Shown here: piece by piece, positions 36,861 through 55,188 of the stretch
How the letters are laid out: each line of letters begins with the position of its first letter
Numbering within the stretch: the stretch's first letter is position 1
DNA from: Nitrospirota bacterium
GTDB lineage: Bacteria > Nitrospirota > Thermodesulfovibrionia > Thermodesulfovibrionales > JdFR-88
DNA: 64,000 nucleotides
NCBI GenBank assembly: GCA_021825295.1
Contig: JAKAHV010000015.1
Location: 1 to 64,000 of the forward strand
Reading direction: 5' to 3'
Program-made: the position numbers and the translations under genes
Notes under the pieces: model-generated
What the model saw: only the letters and a program-made list of their open reading frames with translations
What the model was told of the DNA's origin: nothing
The model's database searches: none

Positions 36861-37421
36861 TCAAAAGCCGGTCTTGCTCAATGAGACTGCAGAAGGCACA
36901 AAGTCAGGATACTGCCGGTCTTTGTCCGAGATCTCGGACACTTTCAGGGGCCATTTTATCTCGAAGAGGGGATCGTTCCATCTGATGCCCCTTGAATATT
37001 CCGGCATATAAAACCGTGTCATCTGATAAAAGACTTCAGTGTTGTCGCGGAGGGTCATGAAACCGTGGGCAAAGCCTTCGGGGACATAAAGGAGCCTGCG
37101 GTTTTTCTGGGTCAGTTCCACCGACATCCATTGCTGATAGGTGGGTGAATCAGGCCGGAGATCGGCAATTACGTCATAAACCGCGCCCAATGTGCACCTG
37201 ACCAGTTTTGCTTCGCTGTATGGGGCCGCCTGGTAATGGAGCCCCCGGAGGGTCCCTCTTTTTTTGTTGAAGGAGACGTTGGACTGTACGGGTTTCTTAT
37301 GTATTCCCAGCATCTCGAATTCGTGCTGGCACCACGAGCCGGCAAGAAACCCGCTGCCGTCCGCCTCCGCCTCCGGCTCCACTATGAAGGCGCCATCCAG
37401 CCTGGTCTTGACGAATTTCAT
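36861..37421 (-). CDS. rfbC: dTDP-4-dehydrorhamnose 3,5-epimerase
   Basis: RGLHYQAAPYSEAKLVRC, GAVYDVIADLRPDSPTY, VPEGFAHGFMTLRDNTEVFY. Confidence 0.93.
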   Translation of the reverse strand: MKFVKTRLDGAFIVEPEAEADGSGFLAGSWCQHEFEMLGIHKKPVQSNVSFNKKRGTLRGLHYQAAPYSEAKLVRCTLGAVYDVIADLRPDSPTYQQWMSVELTQKNRRLLYVPEGFAHGFMTLRDNTEVFYQMTRFYMPEYSRGIRWNDPLFEIKWPLKVSEISDKDRQYPDFVPSAVSLSKTGF

Positions 37422-37609: not shown

Positions 37610-37993
37610 TCAGATGATCCTGTAGCCTTCCCCCTCCGGTAGAGGCCGGAGAAAAAAATGTCTCACGAGGTCCTTGAATTTCCTGTAGTCGAGGGGTTTT
37701 AAAAGGCAGCAGGAATTTTTCAGGCCTTCGAGCGTCTTTAGCAGTTCCGCGTCTATATGGTCCGAAAGTATGATCACCGGCACTTCAAGCCATTTTATCT
37801 GCTCTAAAATCGGGTCGCCGAAGGGATAGCTAGTGATTATGAGGCCGGGCTGGCGCCGCGCCAGAAACGGCGGAAAACGGGCGGGATCTGCCTCCGCCAC
37901 GGCATCGTAACCCTCCGTGGCCAGAATGGCCTGGCAGATGCGGGAAAACCTGGCCTCGTCAAATATAAGGATTTTCTTGTCTGGCAGGATCAT
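37610..37993 (-). CDS. Receiver-like (pseudo-receiver) protein
   Basis: KKILIFDEARFSRICQAILATEGYDAV..PGLIITSYPFGD..VPVIILS..CCLLKPLDYRKFKDLV; no Asp at the phosphoacceptor position. Confidence 0.65.
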   Translation of the reverse strand: MILPDKKILIFDEARFSRICQAILATEGYDAVAEADPARFPPFLARRQPGLIITSYPFGDPILEQIKWLEVPVIILSDHIDAELLKTLEGLKNSCCLLKPLDYRKFKDLVRHFFLRPLPEGEGYRII

Positions 37994-38102: not shown

Positions 38103-39452
38103 TCAAAGAGCGCCGCCAAGCTTCTTGTAGAAGGACTTCCTGGAAATGCCAAGCGCCCTCGCCGCCTGCGATTTGTTGCCCCTGCACTGGGAAAGGGCCC
38201 TTTTAACAGCTTGGATCTCGAGTTCCCTGAGCGTCTTTAAAGAGCCGGCAAGCCCCCGTCGCCTTTTAAAAGATAAAATTTCGGCGGGCATTTCACCGGC
38301 GGTTATGGCCTCTCCCGCGGCAAGCACGACCGCGCGCTCAATCACGTTTCTCAGTTGTCTTACGTTTCCCGGCCAGGAATATCCCAGCAGTATTCCCATC
38401 ATGTCCGGCGGGATGGAGAGCTTCTTGCCCTCCCGCGTGCAGTATTCGTTTAGAAACTCCGCCGCCAGCAGCGGAAGGTCCTCCATCCTTTCCCTGAGCG
38501 GGGGCATGTTGATGTGCACGATGTTTATCCGGTAAAAGAGGTCTTCCCTGAAATTGCCCTTTTTGACTTCCGCATGAAGCTCGCGGTTGGTGGAACAGAT
38601 CAGCCGGAAATTCATTTTGATCCTGCGGTTTCCGCCCAGCCTTTGCATCTCCCGCTCCTCGAGCACCCGCAGGAGTTTTGACTGAAGCGAATGCCCCAAT
38701 TCACCTATTTCATCGAGGAAGAGGGTCCCCGCCCCGGCCTCCTCGAACCTGCCGATCCTCCTTGAGCAGGCCCCGGTGAAGGCTCCTTTCTCATAGCCGA
38801 AGAGCTCGGACTCAATAAGCTCCGCCGGTATGGCCGCGCAGTTGGCGGCGACAAAGGGCAGGTCCCTTCTGACGCCTCCGTAGTGGATGGCCCTGGCGGC
38901 CAGCTCCTTGCCGGTGCCGGTCTCCCCGGTGATAAGTACGCTGCTTGCAGAATCACTTACCGACTCGATTATCCCCGAAACCCTCAGCATCCCGTCCGTC
39001 TTGCCGGTGAGATTCACCCGCCTGCGGCATCCCAGACTGATCTTCAGACGCTCGATCTCATGTTTCAGCCGCCTTTGCTCAATCGCCCGTTCCAGCATTT
39101 TCTTCAGTTTCAGGAAATCCGGGGGCTTGACGAAATAATAAAAGGCCCCCTTTATAAGGGCCTGCACGGCGGACTCCACGGTCCCGTAGGCGGTAAGGAA
39201 AATGACGGGAACGCCCGGATGCCTTCTCATCACAAAATCGAAAAGCCCCATCCCGTCCGTGCAAGGCATCCTGAGATCGGTGATCACCGCGTCGATGCTC
39301 TGCCTGTCCATTGTCTCCATCGCCTCCGAGCCGTCCGGCGAGGCAAACACATTGTACCCCTCGGCGGACAAGATGGCCGACAGGACTTTCAGCGTATTCG
39401 GCTCGTCATCGGCGATGAGTATGTTGGCCTTGTTGGCGGTTCCAGTATCCAT
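38103..39452 (-). CDS. Sigma-54-dependent response regulator (NtrC family)
   Basis: Receiver VITDLRMP..KPPD; AAA+ GETGTGKEL, GAFTGA, GTLFLDEIGEL; Fis-type HTH KSQAARALGISRKSFYKKL. Confidence 0.95.
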   Translation of the reverse strand: MDTGTANKANILIADDEPNTLKVLSAILSAEGYNVFASPDGSEAMETMDRQSIDAVITDLRMPCTDGMGLFDFVMRRHPGVPVIFLTAYGTVESAVQALIKGAFYYFVKPPDFLKLKKMLERAIEQRRLKHEIERLKISLGCRRRVNLTGKTDGMLRVSGIIESVSDSASSVLITGETGTGKELAARAIHYGGVRRDLPFVAANCAAIPAELIESELFGYEKGAFTGACSRRIGRFEEAGAGTLFLDEIGELGHSLQSKLLRVLEEREMQRLGGNRRIKMNFRLICSTNRELHAEVKKGNFREDLFYRINIVHINMPPLRERMEDLPLLAAEFLNEYCTREGKKLSIPPDMMGILLGYSWPGNVRQLRNVIERAVVLAAGEAITAGEMPAEILSFKRRRGLAGSLKTLRELEIQAVKRALSQCRGNKSQAARALGISRKSFYKKLGGAL

Positions 39453-39467
39453 AAAAATCCCGGCTGA

Positions 39468-42155
39468 TCAAATCAGGTTGATCTCCTCCGTTTTTGCAAG
39501 GATGCCCTGGAAATTGGGCACGGCCCTTCTGATGCAGTCGATCACATCGTCCGCGGAAAGCGCGTGGACCGCATCTTCAAGCTCCTTCACCATCGCTTCA
39601 AGCTCCTCATTGGAAGGGACGCTGGAGACCGCCATCTTCAGCTTTTCATGGGAGGTGGGCAGTATGGTTTCGCTCGCGTCGAAGAGCTCCTCAAAGAGTT
39701 TTTCGCCCGGCCGCAGCCCGGAGAACTCTATTTTTATCTCCTTGTGGGGCACAAGGCCCGACAGTCTCACAAAATTCTCGGCCAGGTCCAGAATTTTCAC
39801 CGGCTCACCCATATCGAGCACGAATATCTCGCCGCCCCGCCCCGATGCCCCGGCTATCAGCACCAGTTGCATCGCCTCCGGTATCAGCATAAAAAACCTT
39901 TTCACCTCGGGATGGGTGACCGTCAGCGGTCCGCCCTTGGCAAGCTGCTCCCTGAAGATGGGCACAACGCTGCCGTTTGTCCCCAGGACGTTGCCGAACC
40001 TCACCACGCTGAACCGGCTCCCGGAAAGACGGTTCATGGCTATGGTCAGGAACTCGGCCAGGCGCTTTGTGGCTCCCATGACGCTGGTGGGGTTCACGGC
40101 CTTGTCCGTCGATATGGCGACAAAGCTCTCAACACCGTGGCGGTCCGCCGCGTGGAGGAGATTCCTTGTGCCAAGGACGTTGTTTTTCACCGCCTCCACC
40201 ACGTTCGATTCCATCAGCGGCACGTGCTTGTACGCCGCGGCGTGGAAGACTATCTGGGGATTATGCCTGGAAAACAGGTATTCAATGTAAAGGGGGTCCT
40301 GTATGTCGCCCACGGCGCTTGTCAGGGCCGCGCACGCGGCCCCCCCGCGTCTGAGCTCCATGTCTATGTGGAAAAGGTTGTTTTCGTATCTGTCCAGAAG
40401 CACAAGGCGGCCCGGATTGTACTTCATTATCTGCCTGGACAGCTCGGAGCCGATTGAGCCGCCAGCCCCCGTCACAAACACGGATTTGCCTTCAATGAAC
40501 TCCCTGACGGATTTTATATCGGCCCGGACGGGTTCTCTCTGCAGGAGGTCCTCGAGGGAGAGCGGTTTTATACGCGAAAAAACGTATTGCTTCTGGAGGG
40601 CGGATACGAGATTCTCCTCCTGGATAAGACCAAGTCCGATGAGTTTGGAGCCGAGTTTGCCGCCCTCAGCCCTCTGAAGCGACAGGCCCATCGCGAGTTG
40701 GGAATGGGTGATGTGGCCCGCGTCGATCAGCACCTGGCCTATCCTGGGGGCTATCGAGACGTCCCCGTTCAGGATGTCCTCCATAACGGGCAGCTTCTTT
40801 ACCGGGATATTGAAGGGCTTGGAAAGCTCGTATATCCTTTTCAGGGCATCGGGGCCGCAGGGAAACGAGACCAGAATCTCGTCCGGCAGGTGCTTCCTGA
40901 TGAGGTCGGGAAGGTGCTCCTTTGGCCCGAGAATCGGCACGCCGTGGATGGAGAGTCCCCTTTTGTACCTGTCATCGTCGATAAAGCCGACGGGTTCGTA
41001 GGAATTCCTGTGCCCGTTTGTCTTCATCTGCCTCACGGCGATCTCTCCGGCGTCGCCGGCGCCAACTATAAAGACCTTCTTCTGCGGGCTTTCGGCGCTC
41101 ATATACTCGTTGAATATCCTGATCATGAGCCTCATGCCACCGGACAACGACACGAACACCAGGAAATCTATGATGTAAATGGAGCGCGGATATCCCCTGT
41201 CCCCGAAAATGAAAACGACCGCGGCCATGAAGAGCGCGTTTCCGGCGGCCGAGGTCCAGAGGATATCCACCAGGTCCTTTATCCCGGCATACCGCCACAG
41301 ACTCTTATAAAGGCCCGCCCGCAAATAAAAGAAGAGCCTTATGGCAAGCAGGAGCGGGATATAGGTGAGAAATTGGGCCACGTTCACAGGCGACAGAAGA
41401 GACTCGAACCTCAGAATAAATGCAAGATAGTTTGCCGTGACCGTTTGAACGAGCAGGGTCATGGCGAACACCAGGCGCCTTCGCCTTATTATGAAATCCC
41501 TCACGGGACTGTAAATGGACGTGGTGAAAGGTCTTCCATCCTTGCCTGGCCCGTCCGTCCGCCCTGCCCGTACCCAGCTTCTGAACACTGTCCCCGTAAT
41601 GATCCCGAGGTCTTTCAAGGTCCCGGCGTTGCTGAGGTATTGTTTTGAAATCCTGATCTTCTCCGGGAGTATTTTCTTGATATAGATTTCCTCTCCGCCG
41701 GAGGAAAGCGGCAGCGCGTCCTCCTCCTGCATGAAACAGACGGATGCAGGGTCCGTCATGCCCGGCCGGACGGCCAGCAGGGTCTTGTAATCATCGCGAA
41801 AAAGCTCAATATACTTCCTCACTTCCGGCCTGGGCCCGACGAAGCTCATCTCCCCCTTGAGGATATTTATCAGCTGCGGCAGCTCATCGAGCTTGTACTT
41901 CCTCAAAAAACTCCCGAGCGGCGTGACCCTCACGTCGCCCTTTGACGTAACGAGCGGCCCCTCCGCCTGGGCGCCGTCCCTCATGGTGCGGAATTTGTAG
42001 ATTGAGAAGGGCGTGAAATTCATGCCCATCCTCTCCTGCCGGAAGAAAACCGGGCCCTCGGAGCTCCATTTCACAGCCAGGGCGATAACGGCAAGCAGGG
42101 GCGCAAAGGCAACAAGGCCAAACAGGGAAAAAAGGATGTCAATCGCACGCTTCAT
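39468..42155 (-). CDS. Fused initiating sugar transferase plus FlaA1/CapD-type NDP-sugar dehydratase/epimerase with internal MshEN-like domain
   Basis: N-terminal MKRAIDILFSLFG..KFRTMRDGA..DELPQLINILKGEMSFVGPRPE; TM region; VFIVGAGDAGEIAVRQM; TGAGGSIGSELSRQI..AAAYKHVPLME; start refined to 42155. Confidence 0.92.
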   Translation of the reverse strand: MKRAIDILFSLFGLVAFAPLLAVIALAVKWSSEGPVFFRQERMGMNFTPFSIYKFRTMRDGAQAEGPLVTSKGDVRVTPLGSFLRKYKLDELPQLINILKGEMSFVGPRPEVRKYIELFRDDYKTLLAVRPGMTDPASVCFMQEEDALPLSSGGEEIYIKKILPEKIRISKQYLSNAGTLKDLGIITGTVFRSWVRAGRTDGPGKDGRPFTTSIYSPVRDFIIRRRRLVFAMTLLVQTVTANYLAFILRFESLLSPVNVAQFLTYIPLLLAIRLFFYLRAGLYKSLWRYAGIKDLVDILWTSAAGNALFMAAVVFIFGDRGYPRSIYIIDFLVFVSLSGGMRLMIRIFNEYMSAESPQKKVFIVGAGDAGEIAVRQMKTNGHRNSYEPVGFIDDDRYKRGLSIHGVPILGPKEHLPDLIRKHLPDEILVSFPCGPDALKRIYELSKPFNIPVKKLPVMEDILNGDVSIAPRIGQVLIDAGHITHSQLAMGLSLQRAEGGKLGSKLIGLGLIQEENLVSALQKQYVFSRIKPLSLEDLLQREPVRADIKSVREFIEGKSVFVTGAGGSIGSELSRQIMKYNPGRLVLLDRYENNLFHIDMELRRGGAACAALTSAVGDIQDPLYIEYLFSRHNPQIVFHAAAYKHVPLMESNVVEAVKNNVLGTRNLLHAADRHGVESFVAISTDKAVNPTSVMGATKRLAEFLTIAMNRLSGSRFSVVRFGNVLGTNGSVVPIFREQLAKGGPLTVTHPEVKRFFMLIPEAMQLVLIAGASGRGGEIFVLDMGEPVKILDLAENFVRLSGLVPHKEIKIEFSGLRPGEKLFEELFDASETILPTSHEKLKMAVSSVPSNEELEAMVKELEDAVHALSADDVIDCIRRAVPNFQGILAKTEEINLI
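40587..40745 (-). other. MshEN-like (T2SSE N-terminal, c-di-GMP receptor) domain core inside the fused protein
   Basis: RIGQVLIDAGHITHSQLAMGLSLQ (24) - RAEGG (5) - KLGSKLIGLGLIQEENLVSALQKQ (24). Confidence 0.85.
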
Positions 42156-42160
42156 AAACC

Positions 42161-43312
42161 TCACCTTTTGAACTTTCTGGCCAGATGAGTCACCACCTCG
42201 ATTACTCCGGAGACCTCCTCCTCCATCATCCCGGGATATATGGGAAGCGAGACGATGCGCCCGAACACCCATTCGGATGCGGGGTATTCATGCAGCCTGC
42301 AGCCGTATTTGTTCTTGTAGTAGGGGTGCCTGTAGAGAGGGATGAAATGGACAGACGCGCCAATTCCCCTTTTCGACAGCTCCTCGATGAAACGGTCCCT
42401 GCCGATCTTCAGGCTCTCCAGGTTCAGTTTCAGGCAGTAGAGGTGCCAGGCGCTTTCCCTGTCTGGCTTGACAAACGGCGTTATAAGCTCCTCCATCGCG
42501 CTGAAGGCCTCGTTGTATCTGGCGGCGATCTCCCTCCTCGCCTGCCACATCCATTCCAGTTTTGCGAGCTGCGCAAGACCGAGGGCCGCCTGGACATCTG
42601 TCATGTTGTACTTCCATCCGGCGTCTATGACCTCGTATCGCCATGTGCCGCTTTTTGTATATCTCTTCCAGGCGTCCCTGGAGATCCCGTGCATCCTCAG
42701 CACCCGCATCGTCTCGGCCCACCGCTCGTCGTTCGTGACCGCCATCCCCCCTTCCCCTGTACAAAGGGTTTTTGTTGCGTAGAAGCTGAAGCATGTGATA
42801 TCGCCCAGGCCGCCGACCTTTTTGTACCTGTACCATGCCGGCAGGGCATGGGCCGCGTCCTCGATCACATGCACCCGGCGCGCCTTAGCGATCTCCAGTA
42901 TCTCGTCCATGTCACAGGGCTGGCCCGCATAGTGCACGGGGATTATGGCCTTTGTCCGTCCAGTGATGCGGCTTTCGAGCTTGTTCAAGTCGATATTGGA
43001 GGTCCCGGTCTCTATGTCGGCGAAGACGGGCCTGGCGTTGAAATAGCTGATCACCTCCGAGGTGGCCGTAAACGTCATGGCGGGCACGATTACCTCGTCG
43101 CCCTCCTGCAGACCGATGGCCCGGAGCGCCAGGTGGAGGCAGGCGGTGCAGGAGTTCATCGAGACGGCATGCCCGGACTCCACATACCCCGCAAACCTGT
43201 TTTCGAATTCGATCGTCTTGGGGCCCATAGTGAGCCAGCCGGACCTGATGGCCTTTACAACGGCTGCTATCTCTTCATCTGTTATGTAGGGCTTGTGGAA
43301 TGGGATTTCCAT
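42161..43312 (-). CDS. DegT/DnrJ/EryC1/StrS aminotransferase
   Basis: GDEVIVPAMTFTATSEVI, VIEDAAHALPAWY, ITCFSFYATKTLCTGEGGM. Confidence 0.93.
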   Translation of the reverse strand: MEIPFHKPYITDEEIAAVVKAIRSGWLTMGPKTIEFENRFAGYVESGHAVSMNSCTACLHLALRAIGLQEGDEVIVPAMTFTATSEVISYFNARPVFADIETGTSNIDLNKLESRITGRTKAIIPVHYAGQPCDMDEILEIAKARRVHVIEDAAHALPAWYRYKKVGGLGDITCFSFYATKTLCTGEGGMAVTNDERWAETMRVLRMHGISRDAWKRYTKSGTWRYEVIDAGWKYNMTDVQAALGLAQLAKLEWMWQARREIAARYNEAFSAMEELITPFVKPDRESAWHLYCLKLNLESLKIGRDRFIEELSKRGIGASVHFIPLYRHPYYKNKYGCRLHEYPASEWVFGRIVSLPIYPGMMEEEVSGVIEVVTHLARKFKR

Positions 43313-43475: not shown

Positions 43476-43985
43476 CTAAACCATCTCGATATCCTCGGCC
43501 GGGACCTTTACCCCTATGCTCCTGCCAAGGATATCTATGTTAACGATGAGCATATAGCAGTCTTCTTTCTTGACTATAACGCCAGAGGCCCCGCTTAGCG
43601 GCCCCCTCATGACCATCACCCGCACGCCTTCCTTCAGGGCGGGATAGATGTCCAGGCCGCTGCCCTTTTCCACCATGAGCTTCAGGGAATCGATCTCGTT
43701 GTCGGGCACGGCAAGAGGCACTCCCTGTTGCCCCGAGACCAGGCTTACCACCCCCCTGGCCTTCAGGACGTTGACAAACTCCGAGGGATTCGGATTAACA
43801 CGCACAAACAGATATCCGGGGAAGAGAGGAAATTCCACCACCTTTTTGCGGTCCTTCCACTGCCGGTTCCTTTTGATGAGGGGCAGATACGACTCCACCC
43901 CCTTTTTTTGAAGCTGGCCGTAGGCCACGCCCTCGTGTCTTGATCTCACGTATATGGCGTACCATTTGAACCCGGCGGCTCCCAT
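43476..43985 (-). CDS. NusG/RfaH/UpxY-like specialised transcription elongation factor
   Basis: KWYAIYVRSRHEGVAYGQLQKKGVESYLPL..FPGYLFVRV; C-terminal KOW-like GVRVMVMRGPLSGASGVIV; start placed at 43985 rather than 44027 because of the promoter below. Confidence 0.88.
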   Translation of the reverse strand: MGAAGFKWYAIYVRSRHEGVAYGQLQKKGVESYLPLIKRNRQWKDRKKVVEFPLFPGYLFVRVNPNPSEFVNVLKARGVVSLVSGQQGVPLAVPDNEIDSLKLMVEKGSGLDIYPALKEGVRVMVMRGPLSGASGVIVKKEDCYMLIVNIDILGRSIGVKVPAEDIEMV

Positions 43986-44016
43986 GACGGTTTTTTCATC
44001 CATGATATTTGAAATT

Positions 44017-44031
44017 GCAATTGGCATGCCA
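44017..44031 (-). promoter_or_regulatory. Sigma-54 (-24/-12) promoter
   Basis: Minus strand TGGCAT-GCCAA-TTGC against consensus TGGCAC-N5-TTGC. Confidence 0.65.
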
Positions 44032-44250: not shown

Positions 44251-45339
44251 CTAATCGTCCTGGCGCCAGGCGTCTCCGGTTCCGGCCGGGGGCCTGCCGG
44301 GCAGGGCGGGAATCTGGACGGCCGCCCGGTCGGCCGGGATGCAGAGGAGGACCGTTGTGCCAATGCCTTTTTGACTTTTAATCTGCAGCAGCCCTCCATA
44401 GTATCGCAATATCTCCCTGGTGAGGAAGAGGCCGAACCCCTTCCCCTTGTCCGCGGCGGCCGGTCTTTCATTTTCGCCGCCAAGGATTCCCGATCCGGTG
44501 TCGGATATCCGTATTACTACAAGGTCCCGCTCCTGGGGCTGCCTTCCGGCTGACAGGAGCGTCCGGACGCGAAGCGTTCCGCCATGGCCCATGGCCTCGA
44601 TCGCGTTGTTGACCACATTCAGGACGGCCTGTTCCAACTGAAAAGGGTTTATGACCGCGCCGGGCAGTTTCGGCGCGTACCTGAATTCCGATTTAATGCC
44701 GTTTGCCATGGCCTGAAGCGATACGAAAACCTCTATTTTTTTCACCAGAGAGTTTATGTCAACCGCCTGGCCCATCTCTGCAATGCCTGCGGAGAGGAAC
44801 CTCGATATGAAATTGTCCAGGCGCGATATCTCCTCTTCCATGAGTTTGGTGAATTCCAGAAGGGGTTTCTCCTGCCTGTATCTTTCCCCGAGGTACACCA
44901 CTGCCCCTTTAATGGCATTGAGCGGGTTTCGCACGCCGTGTGCAAGGATGGACGCCATCTTGCCTATGTCGATAAGCGGCTGGTAATTGTGTAGTTGCCT
45001 TGCGAGGTGGCAGTAAGTCCCCGGATATATCGTGATCCTTGCGCCCCGTTTGCCTTTTTTGCTTAAGCCCTCACCCCCGGCGGGCAGCGGGCTTATGACC
45101 ACATCGGCAAAAAACTGGCAGTTTGAAAATCTCAGGCAAAACGATTTCAGCGTTATGGACATCCCACCCGAGATCGCCATACGCACGGCGTCCCTGTTTC
45201 CGGCTTTGATCTTCGGAAATATTTCATAATATTTCCGGCCCCTTAAATCACCGTCGAACCCCGCAAGCCCGCGGAAGCCCTCATCGGCCCAATCTATGCA
45301 AAGCTTTTCATCTGTGCAAAAGCAATAGGATTTTTTCAT
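44251..45339 (-). CDS. PAS-containing sensor histidine kinase
   Basis: H-box ILAHGVRNPLNAIKGA; N-box VVNNAIEAM; G boxes DTGSGIL, KGKGFGLFLTREI. Confidence 0.9.
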   Translation of the reverse strand: MKKSYCFCTDEKLCIDWADEGFRGLAGFDGDLRGRKYYEIFPKIKAGNRDAVRMAISGGMSITLKSFCLRFSNCQFFADVVISPLPAGGEGLSKKGKRGARITIYPGTYCHLARQLHNYQPLIDIGKMASILAHGVRNPLNAIKGAVVYLGERYRQEKPLLEFTKLMEEEISRLDNFISRFLSAGIAEMGQAVDINSLVKKIEVFVSLQAMANGIKSEFRYAPKLPGAVINPFQLEQAVLNVVNNAIEAMGHGGTLRVRTLLSAGRQPQERDLVVIRISDTGSGILGGENERPAAADKGKGFGLFLTREILRYYGGLLQIKSQKGIGTTVLLCIPADRAAVQIPALPGRPPAGTGDAWRQDD

Positions 45340-45514
45340 GATTCGGAAAGGCCCTACATATTTTTTTAGTCCATCCGGCGGAAAAGTCAAGCGAAAAATT
45401 GCCCAATCCGTCCTGAGCCGCCTTGAGGAACATTTTTTGCTATAAAAATGCAAAGGGGAATTTGGATATTAATCATCTCAAAACAACGTTTATCGTCAAA
45501 CGGGGGAGAGGAAC

Positions 45515-50270: not shown

Positions 50271-52484
50271 TCAGATGGTGAAACCGCCGAAGGGCTCCTC
50301 CGGCAAGTTCTCGCGGGTCAGGCCGTTGCCAGGTTTTTCGTCCAGGCCTGTCCGCCGCACTTCCATATCCGGGCGCAACTCTCCACGGCGGGACTGAACG
50401 TCATTGCAGCCGCCCTGCGGCTGATTTAAATCGCCCTTGTCTTTTACGAACGGGGGCTTCACCGTGACGGACGGGTCCCACGCGACAGTCCTGTTTTTTC
50501 CGCTGGTCTTGGCCGAATAAAGGGACTTGTCCGCCTGTATTATAATGTTTTCCATCGAATCGCCGCACTCCGGGTACATGGCGATCCCGGTGCTTATGGT
50601 CAGGCATCCCCCGGACTCTTTCCTCTTTACGCCGGGAAGGATCATGCCGCACACGTTTCCTCTTATCCTTTCGAGGACGTTGAACGCCTCGTCCTTGCTG
50701 GTCTGCGGCATTATTATCGCGAATTCCTCGCCCCCTATCCTCACAAGGATGTCGTTTGCCCTGATGGAATTGGTCATTATATTGGCGATCTCCCTGAGGG
50801 CGTAATCGCCCGCAAGGTGGCCCTCGGTGTCGTTGAGGACCTTGAAGTCGTCAATGTCCAGAATGGCCAGCGAGAAATTCAGGCCGTACCTCTTCGCCCT
50901 CTGGTATTCCTCCTCGAGCCGCACATCGAAGTAGCGCCTGTTGAAAAGGCCCGTAAGGGGGTCGGTTATCGAAAGCTCCCTCATCTGCTCGGATGTCCTG
51001 TGGCAGTTCGACAGCTTCAAAAGGATTGAGGACTGCAGGGCGAAGGGCAGAAGCACCGCCAGGTCCTTTTCAGTGAATGGCTCTCCCGTGGCCTTGTCCG
51101 AAACGTTCAGTATCCCCATCGTCTCGCCGGAGATCTTCATGGGCATGCTTATGCAGGACTGCGTTTTGAAAAGCGGCTTGGGCGCGCCCGAGAATGCCTT
51201 CAGTTTTTCTTCGCTGTCTATGAGTATCGGCACCCCCTGTTCAAAGACCCTTCCGGCGATGCCCTCCCCCACCCTTATCTTCACTTCCTTCATCAGCCAC
51301 TTGTTCAGGCCCATTACGGAAATTACGCTGAGGGAATCGCCCTCGTCATCGGGCAGCATGACGGAGCATTTCTCCGCATCCACCAGGGCGGCCGCCTCCG
51401 CCACTATATGATCGCACAATGCCTGCCGGTCCTTGTAATGGGAGAAAAGCTGCGTGGTCTTCATGGTTATCAGGTTCAGGCCGTCCGAGTGTTTTTCGTA
51501 CTGATCGCGCAGATATCTGACGCCAAAGAGGTATGCCGAGAGTTTGCAGAGCTCGTTTACCGAGTCGAATGCCTCACGGTCCAGCAGGGAATTGAAAACG
51601 CCCAAAAACCCGAAAAAACCTATCTGGGAGTGGATCGGGAAAAGGTACATGGAGATTATCTCTTCCGGAAAGCCGGAGTGCTTCAATTTATAGCTGTCAA
51701 TGGCTGAAACCGGCATCCTCGACTGGATGGCGTTTGATACCAGGTAATTGTCCTTCGAGAGCTTGAGCCTCCTGATAACATCCCGGTTGCGGCCGCCCGC
51801 GGACTCGGGACAGAAGAAGTCCTTGTTACGCGCGAATATGGCCGCCGTATCTATATTAAACAGAAAGATGACCGTATCGACTATTGTCTGCCGGACATCC
51901 TCGATCGTGGCATCGGATTTTATGTTCGCCGCAAGGTTTATGATCGTCTTGGACCACTGCCATCTCTTGTTCAGCTCCCCTTTTTCATACCCGGAGGAGA
52001 TTATGTTTTCCAGCAGCAGCTTTATGGATTTTATATAATTTTCAATGGCATGCGAGTCCACGAATTTCAGCTCCGCTCTCCACTGTTCCATCGTGCGGTT
52101 TGCTAGCCCGAACTTGTCGGCCTTCGTGGCGTAGAATCTGGCGAAATCCTCGCCGGACATGTAAAAGCCCTCGCACAGGGCCACCAGCATGATCTCCTTG
52201 TATCTGATGGGAATAAAAACATGATACTGCATGGTAAAACCCTGGATAAGAAAGGATTTCGTGTTTTTGAGCGTCAGCTTGAGGTATTTTGAAAGAAACC
52301 CGTTGTATAACTCCTGCCCCTTCTTGTCCGTCTTGATCGAAGCAAGGAGGGGGTCTTCCCTGGAAGGCGCTATCAGAAGATTTTCCCTGTCGTCATAGAG
52401 CGAGAAATTAAGCCCGGTTATGCTGGAGAGGGCCTTCATGGCCTTTGTCAGAAACTGTATATCTATGAGATGTATCATCCTCAT
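50271..52484 (-). CDS. GAF-GGDEF diguanylate cyclase with N-terminal sensory domain
   Basis: RIGGEEF active site; RAND I-site five residues upstream; GAF-like KCSVMLPDDEGDSLSVISVMGL. Confidence 0.92.
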   Translation of the reverse strand: MRMIHLIDIQFLTKAMKALSSITGLNFSLYDDRENLLIAPSREDPLLASIKTDKKGQELYNGFLSKYLKLTLKNTKSFLIQGFTMQYHVFIPIRYKEIMLVALCEGFYMSGEDFARFYATKADKFGLANRTMEQWRAELKFVDSHAIENYIKSIKLLLENIISSGYEKGELNKRWQWSKTIINLAANIKSDATIEDVRQTIVDTVIFLFNIDTAAIFARNKDFFCPESAGGRNRDVIRRLKLSKDNYLVSNAIQSRMPVSAIDSYKLKHSGFPEEIISMYLFPIHSQIGFFGFLGVFNSLLDREAFDSVNELCKLSAYLFGVRYLRDQYEKHSDGLNLITMKTTQLFSHYKDRQALCDHIVAEAAALVDAEKCSVMLPDDEGDSLSVISVMGLNKWLMKEVKIRVGEGIAGRVFEQGVPILIDSEEKLKAFSGAPKPLFKTQSCISMPMKISGETMGILNVSDKATGEPFTEKDLAVLLPFALQSSILLKLSNCHRTSEQMRELSITDPLTGLFNRRYFDVRLEEEYQRAKRYGLNFSLAILDIDDFKVLNDTEGHLAGDYALREIANIMTNSIRANDILVRIGGEEFAIIMPQTSKDEAFNVLERIRGNVCGMILPGVKRKESGGCLTISTGIAMYPECGDSMENIIIQADKSLYSAKTSGKNRTVAWDPSVTVKPPFVKDKGDLNQPQGGCNDVQSRRGELRPDMEVRRTGLDEKPGNGLTRENLPEEPFGGFTI

Positions 52485-54301: not shown

Positions 54302-55093
54302 CTATTTCCCGCCCCTCCCGTACTTGCTCATCAGGGCGTCCAATATGTGGGGCAGCTCCTCCATGTACCGGCCTTTCGGCATCGAGAAGGAAAGATGGCG
54401 GGCGCCTGCCGTTATCGCAACGTAGCTTACCTCGTGATCGCTGCCTGCGACAACCAGGACAGGGGCCTTCCTGGCTGCGGGATGTCCGGAGGGGTTTTCG
54501 AACTCACTGTAAGAGTTAAACGGCAGGTTATCCGAATCTACAAGAATTAAATCGGCGGCAAACGTCCCCGCCTCTTCCACCCCCCCTACTGTCTTTACCT
54601 CGTATTTTTTCTGAAGAAATTGAGGAGTATCGGCGGAGGCGGAGACAAAAAGCACCTTTTTGCCCGCGGTATCCCCGGCCCCCCAGAGCGCGCCAAGGAG
54701 GTTTTCGGCCAGGGAATTATTCACTTCAAGGTCTTTGCCCCATTTCGTATAACCGCTTATCTCCCTTTCCCTTTGCATGACATAGTGGGAGATTTTTTTT
54801 TGCTCGGCGGAGTCATGGTCGAACTGGACCCCGCAGGTATTGTCCGCCACGTTGACGATCCTCCCGGAAAGCCAGCAGACCTCTTCAGCGGGCAGGAGAA
54901 TGGCGAATTCAAGGGTCGAGCCTGCCTGGATGATGTTTTCGGCATAGGGGACGCTCAGCAAAGCCCCTCCCATGCTTATATCTATTATCCTGATGCCCTT
55001 CGCGACCGCCCTGAGAGCCCTGTTTTTGATGGCGACCTTCAGGGGCCTGGATACCGGGACGGGCACCCTGATGTAATTTCGTCGATATGTCAT
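54302..55093 (-). CDS. PilZ-domain c-di-GMP effector with C-terminal receiver-like/unknown domain
   Basis: YRRNYIRVPV (RxxxR) and IIDISMGGALLSV (DxSxxG). Confidence 0.85.
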   Translation of the reverse strand: MTYRRNYIRVPVPVSRPLKVAIKNRALRAVAKGIRIIDISMGGALLSVPYAENIIQAGSTLEFAILLPAEEVCWLSGRIVNVADNTCGVQFDHDSAEQKKISHYVMQREREISGYTKWGKDLEVNNSLAENLLGALWGAGDTAGKKVLFVSASADTPQFLQKKYEVKTVGGVEEAGTFAADLILVDSDNLPFNSYSEFENPSGHPAARKAPVLVVAGSDHEVSYVAITAGARHLSFSMPKGRYMEELPHILDALMSKYGRGGK

Positions 55094-55188
55094 GGCCTCG
55101 ATAATATTACCAGTCAAACTGATCTTCCCTGCGGCAAGCAGCAGGGAATTTAATGTAAGGAATTTTAATTTTTATCATATTCGCTCGC

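Follow-up and report, generated by a model that had tools for sequence, protein, structure and literature searches.

A predicted c-di-GMP receptor module inserted in a PglF-like UDP-sugar dehydratase of a Nitrospirota bacterium

What would a receptor for c-di-GMP do inside a membrane enzyme of sugar-nucleotide metabolism, and which enzymatic step would it govern? The question is raised by a gene within a 64,000-nucleotide stretch of DNA from a Nitrospirota bacterium of the Thermodesulfovibrionia (the window), whose product joins an initiating sugar-phosphate transferase to a sugar-nucleotide dehydratase and carries a short insertion resembling the MshEN domain. For the most part, c-di-GMP is known to control polysaccharides through transcription or through the synthases that polymerise them (cellulose, NfrB), and to our knowledge the c-di-GMP outputs of Thermodesulfovibrionia and of anammox bacteria have been little studied.

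The fused protein and its MshEN_N module

The gene (39468..42155, minus strand) encodes an 895-residue protein in which a phosphoglycosyl transferase (PGT), four transmembrane helices (4TM), a CoA_binding_3 domain, the MshEN module and a PglF-like dehydratase follow one another, as judged from the translation, Pfam and NCBIfam matches and a full-length AlphaFold model (pLDDT 76, pTM 0.51; domain orientation unreliable). The ATG at 42155 was taken as the start because the stop codon of the upstream aminotransferase gene is only 5 bases away; the mechanical open reading frame extends further upstream. A frameshift or assembly artefact was ruled out, as the 895-codon frame is free of stops and the architecture recurs in five more fused genomes and in 25 unfused carriers of the insertion.

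The N-terminal domain (residues 2-191, 41583..42152, minus strand) matches Bac_transf (PF02397, 3.5e-55). It contains an Asp-Glu pair (KLDELPQ), a GPRP motif and an N-terminal hydrophobic helix, all read directly, and its PDB relatives are PglC (8e37/8g1n) and WbaP (8t53). The Bac_transf core and Asp-Glu dyad mark it as a predicted monotopic PGT, in which the N-terminal helix would be re-entrant. Four transmembrane helices are predicted from the full-length model and hydropathy peaks at residues 226-250, 256-280, 292-316 and 324-352 (about 226-352 overall, 41100..41480, minus strand), and a Rossmann-like CoA_binding_3 domain (PF13727, 5e-11) covers residues 281-433 (40857..41315, minus strand). 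The dehydratase domain (Polysacc_synt_2, 1.7e-112) spans residues 559-841 (39633..40481, minus strand). Its first PDB match by sequence is PglF (5bju), which is also matched by fold (TMt 0.94), and direct reading gives T683 D684 K685 ... M693 xxx K697, the TDKxnMx3K signature tabulated for PglF/WbpM (PMC8987622). From the 4TM segment, the CoA_binding_3 domain and a short-chain dehydrogenase/reductase (SDR) domain with this signature, the catalytic domain is assigned to the Met (PglF/WbpM) type, with UDP-GlcNAc as the predicted substrate. The original prediction of an initiating transferase fused to a CapD-type enzyme thus holds for the Bac_transf, CoA_binding_3 and Polysacc_synt_2 domains, but the dehydratase is of the Met and not the Tyr (FlaA1/PseB) type.

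The insertion comprises 58 codons, R471 to R528 (40572..40745, minus strand), of which the first 53 form the motif proper (40587-40745) and the last five read YVFSR. Residues 471-523 of the minus-strand translation are RIGQVLIDAGHITHSQLAMGLSLQ-RAEGG-KLGSKLIGLGLIQEENLVSALQKQ, with motif I at 471-494, a five-residue spacer and motif II at 500-523. The 24-5-24 MshEN architecture originally proposed here was recovered by the NCBIfam profile NF053729 (cyclic di-GMP-binding domain, MshE-related), which covers residues 471-523 at 53 of 53 positions with 47-52 bits against a curated cut-off of 38 bits (E = 1.5e-12 for the whole protein and 4e-14 for the segment alone). A phmmer search of PDB sequences with the segment returned Thermus thermophilus PilF, Vibrio cholerae MshE and several PilB proteins, at E-values down to 5e-10. 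The profile check suggested beforehand (T2SSE_N/MshEN) came out positive for NF053729 but not for Pfam PF05157, a longer model spanning MshEN_C, which had no match in the fused protein at E ≤ 10 because the MshEN_C subdomain is absent. The module is therefore the MshEN_N subdomain only, of the genuine c-di-GMP-receptor type. The missing subdomain should be no obstacle to binding, since the isolated MshEN_N subdomain of MshE binds c-di-GMP at 0.35 µM.

Structure prediction gave the same identification. An AlphaFold2 model of a 111-residue segment was of moderate confidence (pLDDT about 75-82 within the domain, low in the flanks), and its first seven Foldseek matches in the PDB were all MshE or PilF GSPII structures (5htl/8pfa/8pdk), c-di-GMP-bound PilF among them; most matches were c-di-GMP complexes, several at an rmsd of 1.3 Å over 52 columns, with E-values that are weak owing to the short query. 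In the full-length model the four helices of the MshEN_N fold lie at residues 471-478, 484-497, 501-507 and 513-523.

A chance motif match was ruled out by the E-value (about 1e-13) and by the scarcity of other MshEN matches: NF053729 matched only seven places in the whole 2.9-Mb genome. Five of these were checked against Pfam and proved to be two T2SSE-family secretion or pilus ATPases, a CheA-like chemotaxis kinase (Hpt, HATPase_c, CheW) bearing an MshEN-type domain (L005:271-2475, contig C55), and two PatA-like DUF4388 proteins in which MshEN-type motifs occur (L002:757-2142 and L006:1276-2760), the second of them with additional DnaJ and TPR domains and a score under the NF053729 cut-off.

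Ligand contacts were evaluated with the positions and motif definition of Wang 2016 (PMC5013675). Contact positions 1, 2, 3, 17, 21 and 24 are occupied by R471, I472, G473, L487, L491 and Q494 in motif I and by K500, L501, G502, L516, L520 and Q523 in motif II, so that acceptable residues are retained at all main ligand-contact positions; the motif I Arg, the final Gln and Leu17 and Leu21 of motif II, singled out in the original prediction, are all present. Against the tandem pattern (R/K/L)LGxx(LVI)(LVI)xxG(LVI)(LVI)xxxxLxxxLxxQ, repeated twice, the window motifs fit a slightly relaxed form without deviation, having Ile for Leu at position 2 and His at position 11 of motif I. Lys at motif position 1 appears to be tolerated or better, since the PilF GSPII-B domain, with Lys/Leu at this position, binds with a KD of 6 nM and led its authors to widen the start of the consensus to (R/K/L)LG (PMC11731258). 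In the same domain family a single Gln-to-Glu change in PilF left a KD near 0.5-1 µM, and the double change alone abolished binding (PMC11731258). From sequence and modelled fold, we consider it very probable that the window module binds c-di-GMP.

Distribution and history of the insertion

Close relatives either carry the segment (31 homologues) or show an exact 58-column gap in its place (46 homologues), and the linker flanks (..DIL.G.V[ST].. and S.I.PLSLEDLLQRE..) align on both sides of the gap. The alignment indicates a clean insertion of a 58-residue module into a linker that is uninterrupted in relatives without it, in agreement with the earlier proposal that the domain breaks up the linker leading from the cofactor-binding part to the dehydratase part. 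Besides the window protein, the 31 carriers comprise 28 named loci from a scan of genome contigs and two more relatives. The 28 loci belong to Nitrospirota MAGs, two Candidatus Scalindua, one Candidatus Anammoxibacter and one Anaerolineae MAG; the carriers as a whole thus fall in Nitrospirota, anammox Planctomycetota and the single Anaerolineae MAG. The last (L063) lies on a very short contig of 3 kb, and this Chloroflexota carrier may reflect a binning error instead of gene transfer. In a 200-genome sample of the phylum, seven genomes had a full 111-column match at 171 bits or more; the next match, of 83 bits, covered the MshEN part only. The trait is patchy but real, and it has probably moved between phyla.

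A tree of 77 rows and 610 columns, from which the insertion columns had been removed, accommodates the presence of the insertion as one change (SH-aLRT 90), with retention by every sampled member of the clade; a wider group that includes two insertion-less rows has an SH-aLRT of 98. The topology points to a single origin. Repeated independent insertion was considered and is unsupported, one change being sufficient on the tree.

The segment has been kept long-term under purifying selection: compared with the nearest orthologue, dN is 0.063 and dS 0.40. Across the 31 carriers the 12 contact positions have a mean entropy of 0.67 bits vs 1.45 bits at the other 41 (permutation p 0.0012). Both Gly3 residues are invariant and the motif I Gln24 is retained in 30 of 31 carriers; the motif II Gln24 is retained in 22 and gone in 9, and the motif I Gly10 is retained in 9 and gone in 22. 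With these last two losses, some members of the clade may bind the ligand less well or no longer at all; nine distant carriers, L064 among them, are the ones in question. The copy in Candidatus Anammoxibacter (L064), with a shortened spacer and both Gln gone, is a candidate for a decayed, non-binding module. In the window protein and its five PGT-fused orthologues every checked position is kept and both motifs are intact.

Which of the two enzymes owns the receptor was judged from the same set of carriers. In 25 of the 31 the dehydratase has no PGT fusion, and the PGT, where seen, is encoded by an adjacent gene that sometimes overlaps the dehydratase start. Only the window protein and five orthologues, which form one clade, combine a PGT fusion with MshEN, a pattern that points to a later, single fusion event there. 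PGTs fused to CapD/PglF-type dehydratases without MshEN were also seen in related genomes (L026, L027), where fusion occurs independently of the receptor. Since most carriers are unfused, the fusion came later and MshEN-free fusions exist, the receptor appears to have been acquired by the dehydratase, and its evolutionary tie is to that enzyme rather than to the initiating transferase. The converse assignment, the MshEN domain as a property of the PGT, is unsupported by the unfused majority and by an insertion that precedes the fusion on the tree. The original prediction had placed c-di-GMP control at the first committed step or at a precursor step; association with the dehydratase favours the precursor step, and with 25 of 31 carriers unfused, an association with the initiating transferase was not borne out.

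Genomic context

The genes around the fused gene, all on the minus strand, run in the order histidine kinase, UpxY, PseC-like aminotransferase, fused gene, sigma-54 regulator, small receiver-like gene and RmlC, and much of this order recurs across many Nitrospirota loci. Histidine kinase, UpxY, aminotransferase, PGT, dehydratase and sigma-54 regulator together make up a polysaccharide gene cassette. Immediately upstream of the fused gene lies a DegT/PseC-like sugar aminotransferase (42161..43312; PF01041, 4.9e-129), whose best NCBIfam match is PseC at 380 bits, under that model's cut-off of 423.5, and whose adjacency is retained in many Nitrospirota loci. Such an enzyme would be a partner for a 4-keto-6-deoxy product and is consistent with the dehydratase role. 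Further upstream are an UpxY-family transcription antiterminator, a NusG paralogue of polysaccharide operons that is conserved in the cassette (43476..44027; NF033644, 134 bits, cut-off 100), and a sensor histidine kinase (44251..45453; HATPase_c and HisKA) with orthologues at four other loci (L038, L046, L048, L065). On the downstream side, a sigma-54 response regulator (38103..39452; Sigma54_activat, 8e-66) is the immediate and conserved neighbour, and an RmlC dTDP-4-dehydrorhamnose 3,5-epimerase (36861..37421) scores above the TIGR01221 cut-off.

Between these two, two genes downstream of the fused gene, lies a small receiver-like protein of 127 residues (37610-37993, minus strand) that has no Pfam match and apparently lacks the phospho-acceptor Asp. 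It is reminiscent of EpsW, which activates a PGT as a single-domain response regulator (PMC12802240), and a small unmatched gene occupies the equivalent place at another locus (L038:8787-9236). Elsewhere, the enzyme has Wza-like and Wzz-like export genes directly upstream (L044), stands beside a hexapeptide transferase/MocA oxidoreductase (L045) or neighbours UDP-glucose dehydrogenase-family genes (L046, L061); polysaccharide genes were not found among the neighbours checked in Scalindua (L057).

About 8 kb from the fused gene, a diguanylate cyclase with PocR-GAF-GGDEF organisation (50271..52484, minus strand; GGDEF, 2.5e-43) has an intact GGEEF active site and RxxD I-site by direct reading. 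Neither this cyclase nor a PilZ protein (54302-55117, minus strand) is more than 15 kb away from the MshEN enzyme; the cyclase is a possible local source of c-di-GMP, and the two could form a local circuit. Genome-wide, 10 GGDEF, 2 EAL and 7 PilZ matches were counted.

A proposed switch, its alternatives and its precedents

The explanation that we find best, and likely, is that c-di-GMP, acting through the inserted MshEN_N, regulates the dehydratase in cis. The receptor has the membrane-anchored CoA_binding_3 domain on one side and the catalytic domain on the other, and as c-di-GMP rises one molecule would be clamped by the two 24-residue motifs. The ligand would repack the four-helix bundle and so alter the placement of the flanking domains relative to each other, or their dimer state; a shift of the catalytic domain on CoA_binding_3, or its dimerisation over that domain, would then switch the dehydratase, probably on. 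In WbaP the equivalent of CoA_binding_3 mediates dimerisation and is the proposed carrier of nucleotide feedback (PMC10942596). NfrB, a glycosyltransferase with an MshEN domain, binds c-di-GMP and needs that binding for function, and by this precedent activation is probably the sign of regulation over inhibition (PMC8669469). The linker need not control catalysis, because WbpM retains activity in its C-terminal half when the membrane part is missing (PMC8987622). On its presumed substrate the dehydratase would yield UDP-4-keto-6-deoxy-GlcNAc, for the neighbouring PseC-like aminotransferase to turn into a 4-amino sugar. Within the clade of the window protein, the chain also begins with the PGT, which would load a sugar phosphate onto undecaprenyl phosphate, and precursor synthesis and chain initiation would thus reside in one c-di-GMP-responsive polypeptide. 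The step under control is most likely UDP-sugar precursor formation, with control of the PGT only possible in the window protein. An effect of c-di-GMP on the fused PGT there is doubtful, and we are equally hesitant about the wider proposal that one polypeptide senses c-di-GMP and gates both sugar-nucleotide 4,6-dehydration and undecaprenyl-linked chain initiation.

Other roles for the insertion were weighed against this reading. That c-di-GMP acts chiefly on the fused PGT, at chain initiation, instead of on the dehydratase would fit the six fused proteins, all with intact motif halves, and the post-translational control of a PGT at initiation has a precedent in EpsW-EpsZ (PMC12802240). It is improbable given that 25 of 31 carriers are unfused, that the insertion is older than the fusion and lies far along the chain, beside the dehydratase, and that MshEN-free PGT-dehydratase fusions are known (L026, L027). 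We also regard as quite unlikely a module that binds c-di-GMP yet serves localisation, oligomerisation or partner docking without direct catalytic control. MshEN modules do occur in many contexts, membrane-anchored assembly lines are plausible, and the linker is tolerant, relatives without the insertion being otherwise alike; the crystallised PglF construct, however, aligns from residue 531, three residues past the insert, which means that the insertion directly abuts the catalytic domain, and receptor domains so placed would usually act in cis.

An MshEN-derived spacer that has stopped binding c-di-GMP is suggested by the loss of the motif II Gln24 (9 of 31) and motif I Gly10 (22 of 31), by L064, which has neither Gln, and by XpsE, which has the same fold and has lost binding. 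Such a relic is very unlikely here: the window protein and its five PGT-fused orthologues have lost none of the hydrophobic contacts and still carry Gly3 and Gln24 in each motif, conservation peaks at the contact positions (p 0.0012), purifying selection acts on the segment, and the insertion reaches 52 bits with NF053729.

Several known systems resemble parts of the fused protein. The MshEN domains of V. cholerae MshE, PilB and PilF GSPII (PMC5013675, PMC11731258) share the 53-residue 24-5-24 layout, the four short helices and the contact residues; there the domain is N-terminal in secretion or pilus ATPases and is followed by MshEN_C, whereas here MshEN_N stands alone, internally, in a membrane sugar-nucleotide dehydratase. 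Escherichia coli NfrB (PMC8669469) likewise has a covalently attached MshEN and c-di-GMP control of polysaccharide synthesis (predicted in our case), but there the MshEN is C-terminal and the enzyme is a GT2-type synthase acting in polymerisation, unlike a UDP-sugar 4,6-dehydratase (plus PGT) acting in precursor formation and initiation. PglF/WbpM/CapD (PDB 5BJU; PMC8987622) have the same 4TM, CoA_binding_3 and SDR domains with TDKxnMx3K, and in insertion-less relatives the halves meet directly where the fused protein has 58 MshEN residues. Bifunctional monotopic PGTs, named in PMC10942596, also combine a PGT catalytic core with a second functional domain; in the fused protein the role of that domain falls to a full-length membrane PglF-like dehydratase with a second-messenger receptor. 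Myxococcus EpsW-EpsZ (PMC12802240) offers post-translational control of a polysaccharide initiating step, exerted in trans by a phosphorylated receiver protein rather than in cis by a nucleotide receptor domain. MshEN fusions to many domains, glycosyltransferases included, were already known (PMC5013675). Our literature search returned no paper on MshEN inside a nucleotide-sugar dehydratase or tying c-di-GMP to these dehydratases; a prior listing in the supplementary domain-combination tables of PMC5013675 is possible. MshEN is known as a plug-in receptor, and its placement in a UDP-sugar dehydratase may be new.

Enzymes that are almost the same except for the 58-residue insert, which the sisters L066 and L022 lack, provide a natural experiment on how MshEN transfers its signal to an adjoining catalytic domain, and they bear on the purpose of the puzzling N-terminal region common to PglF-like dehydratases and large PGTs (PMC10942596). 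If the proposal is true, a receptor in a UDP-sugar dehydratase would move c-di-GMP control to precursor formation. If dual gating is also true, the supply of precursor and the start of chains would both depend on c-di-GMP, at a control point that precedes the polysaccharide synthases already known to be under its control. In this Nitrospirota bacterium, surface-polysaccharide production is probably set at its first steps by c-di-GMP.
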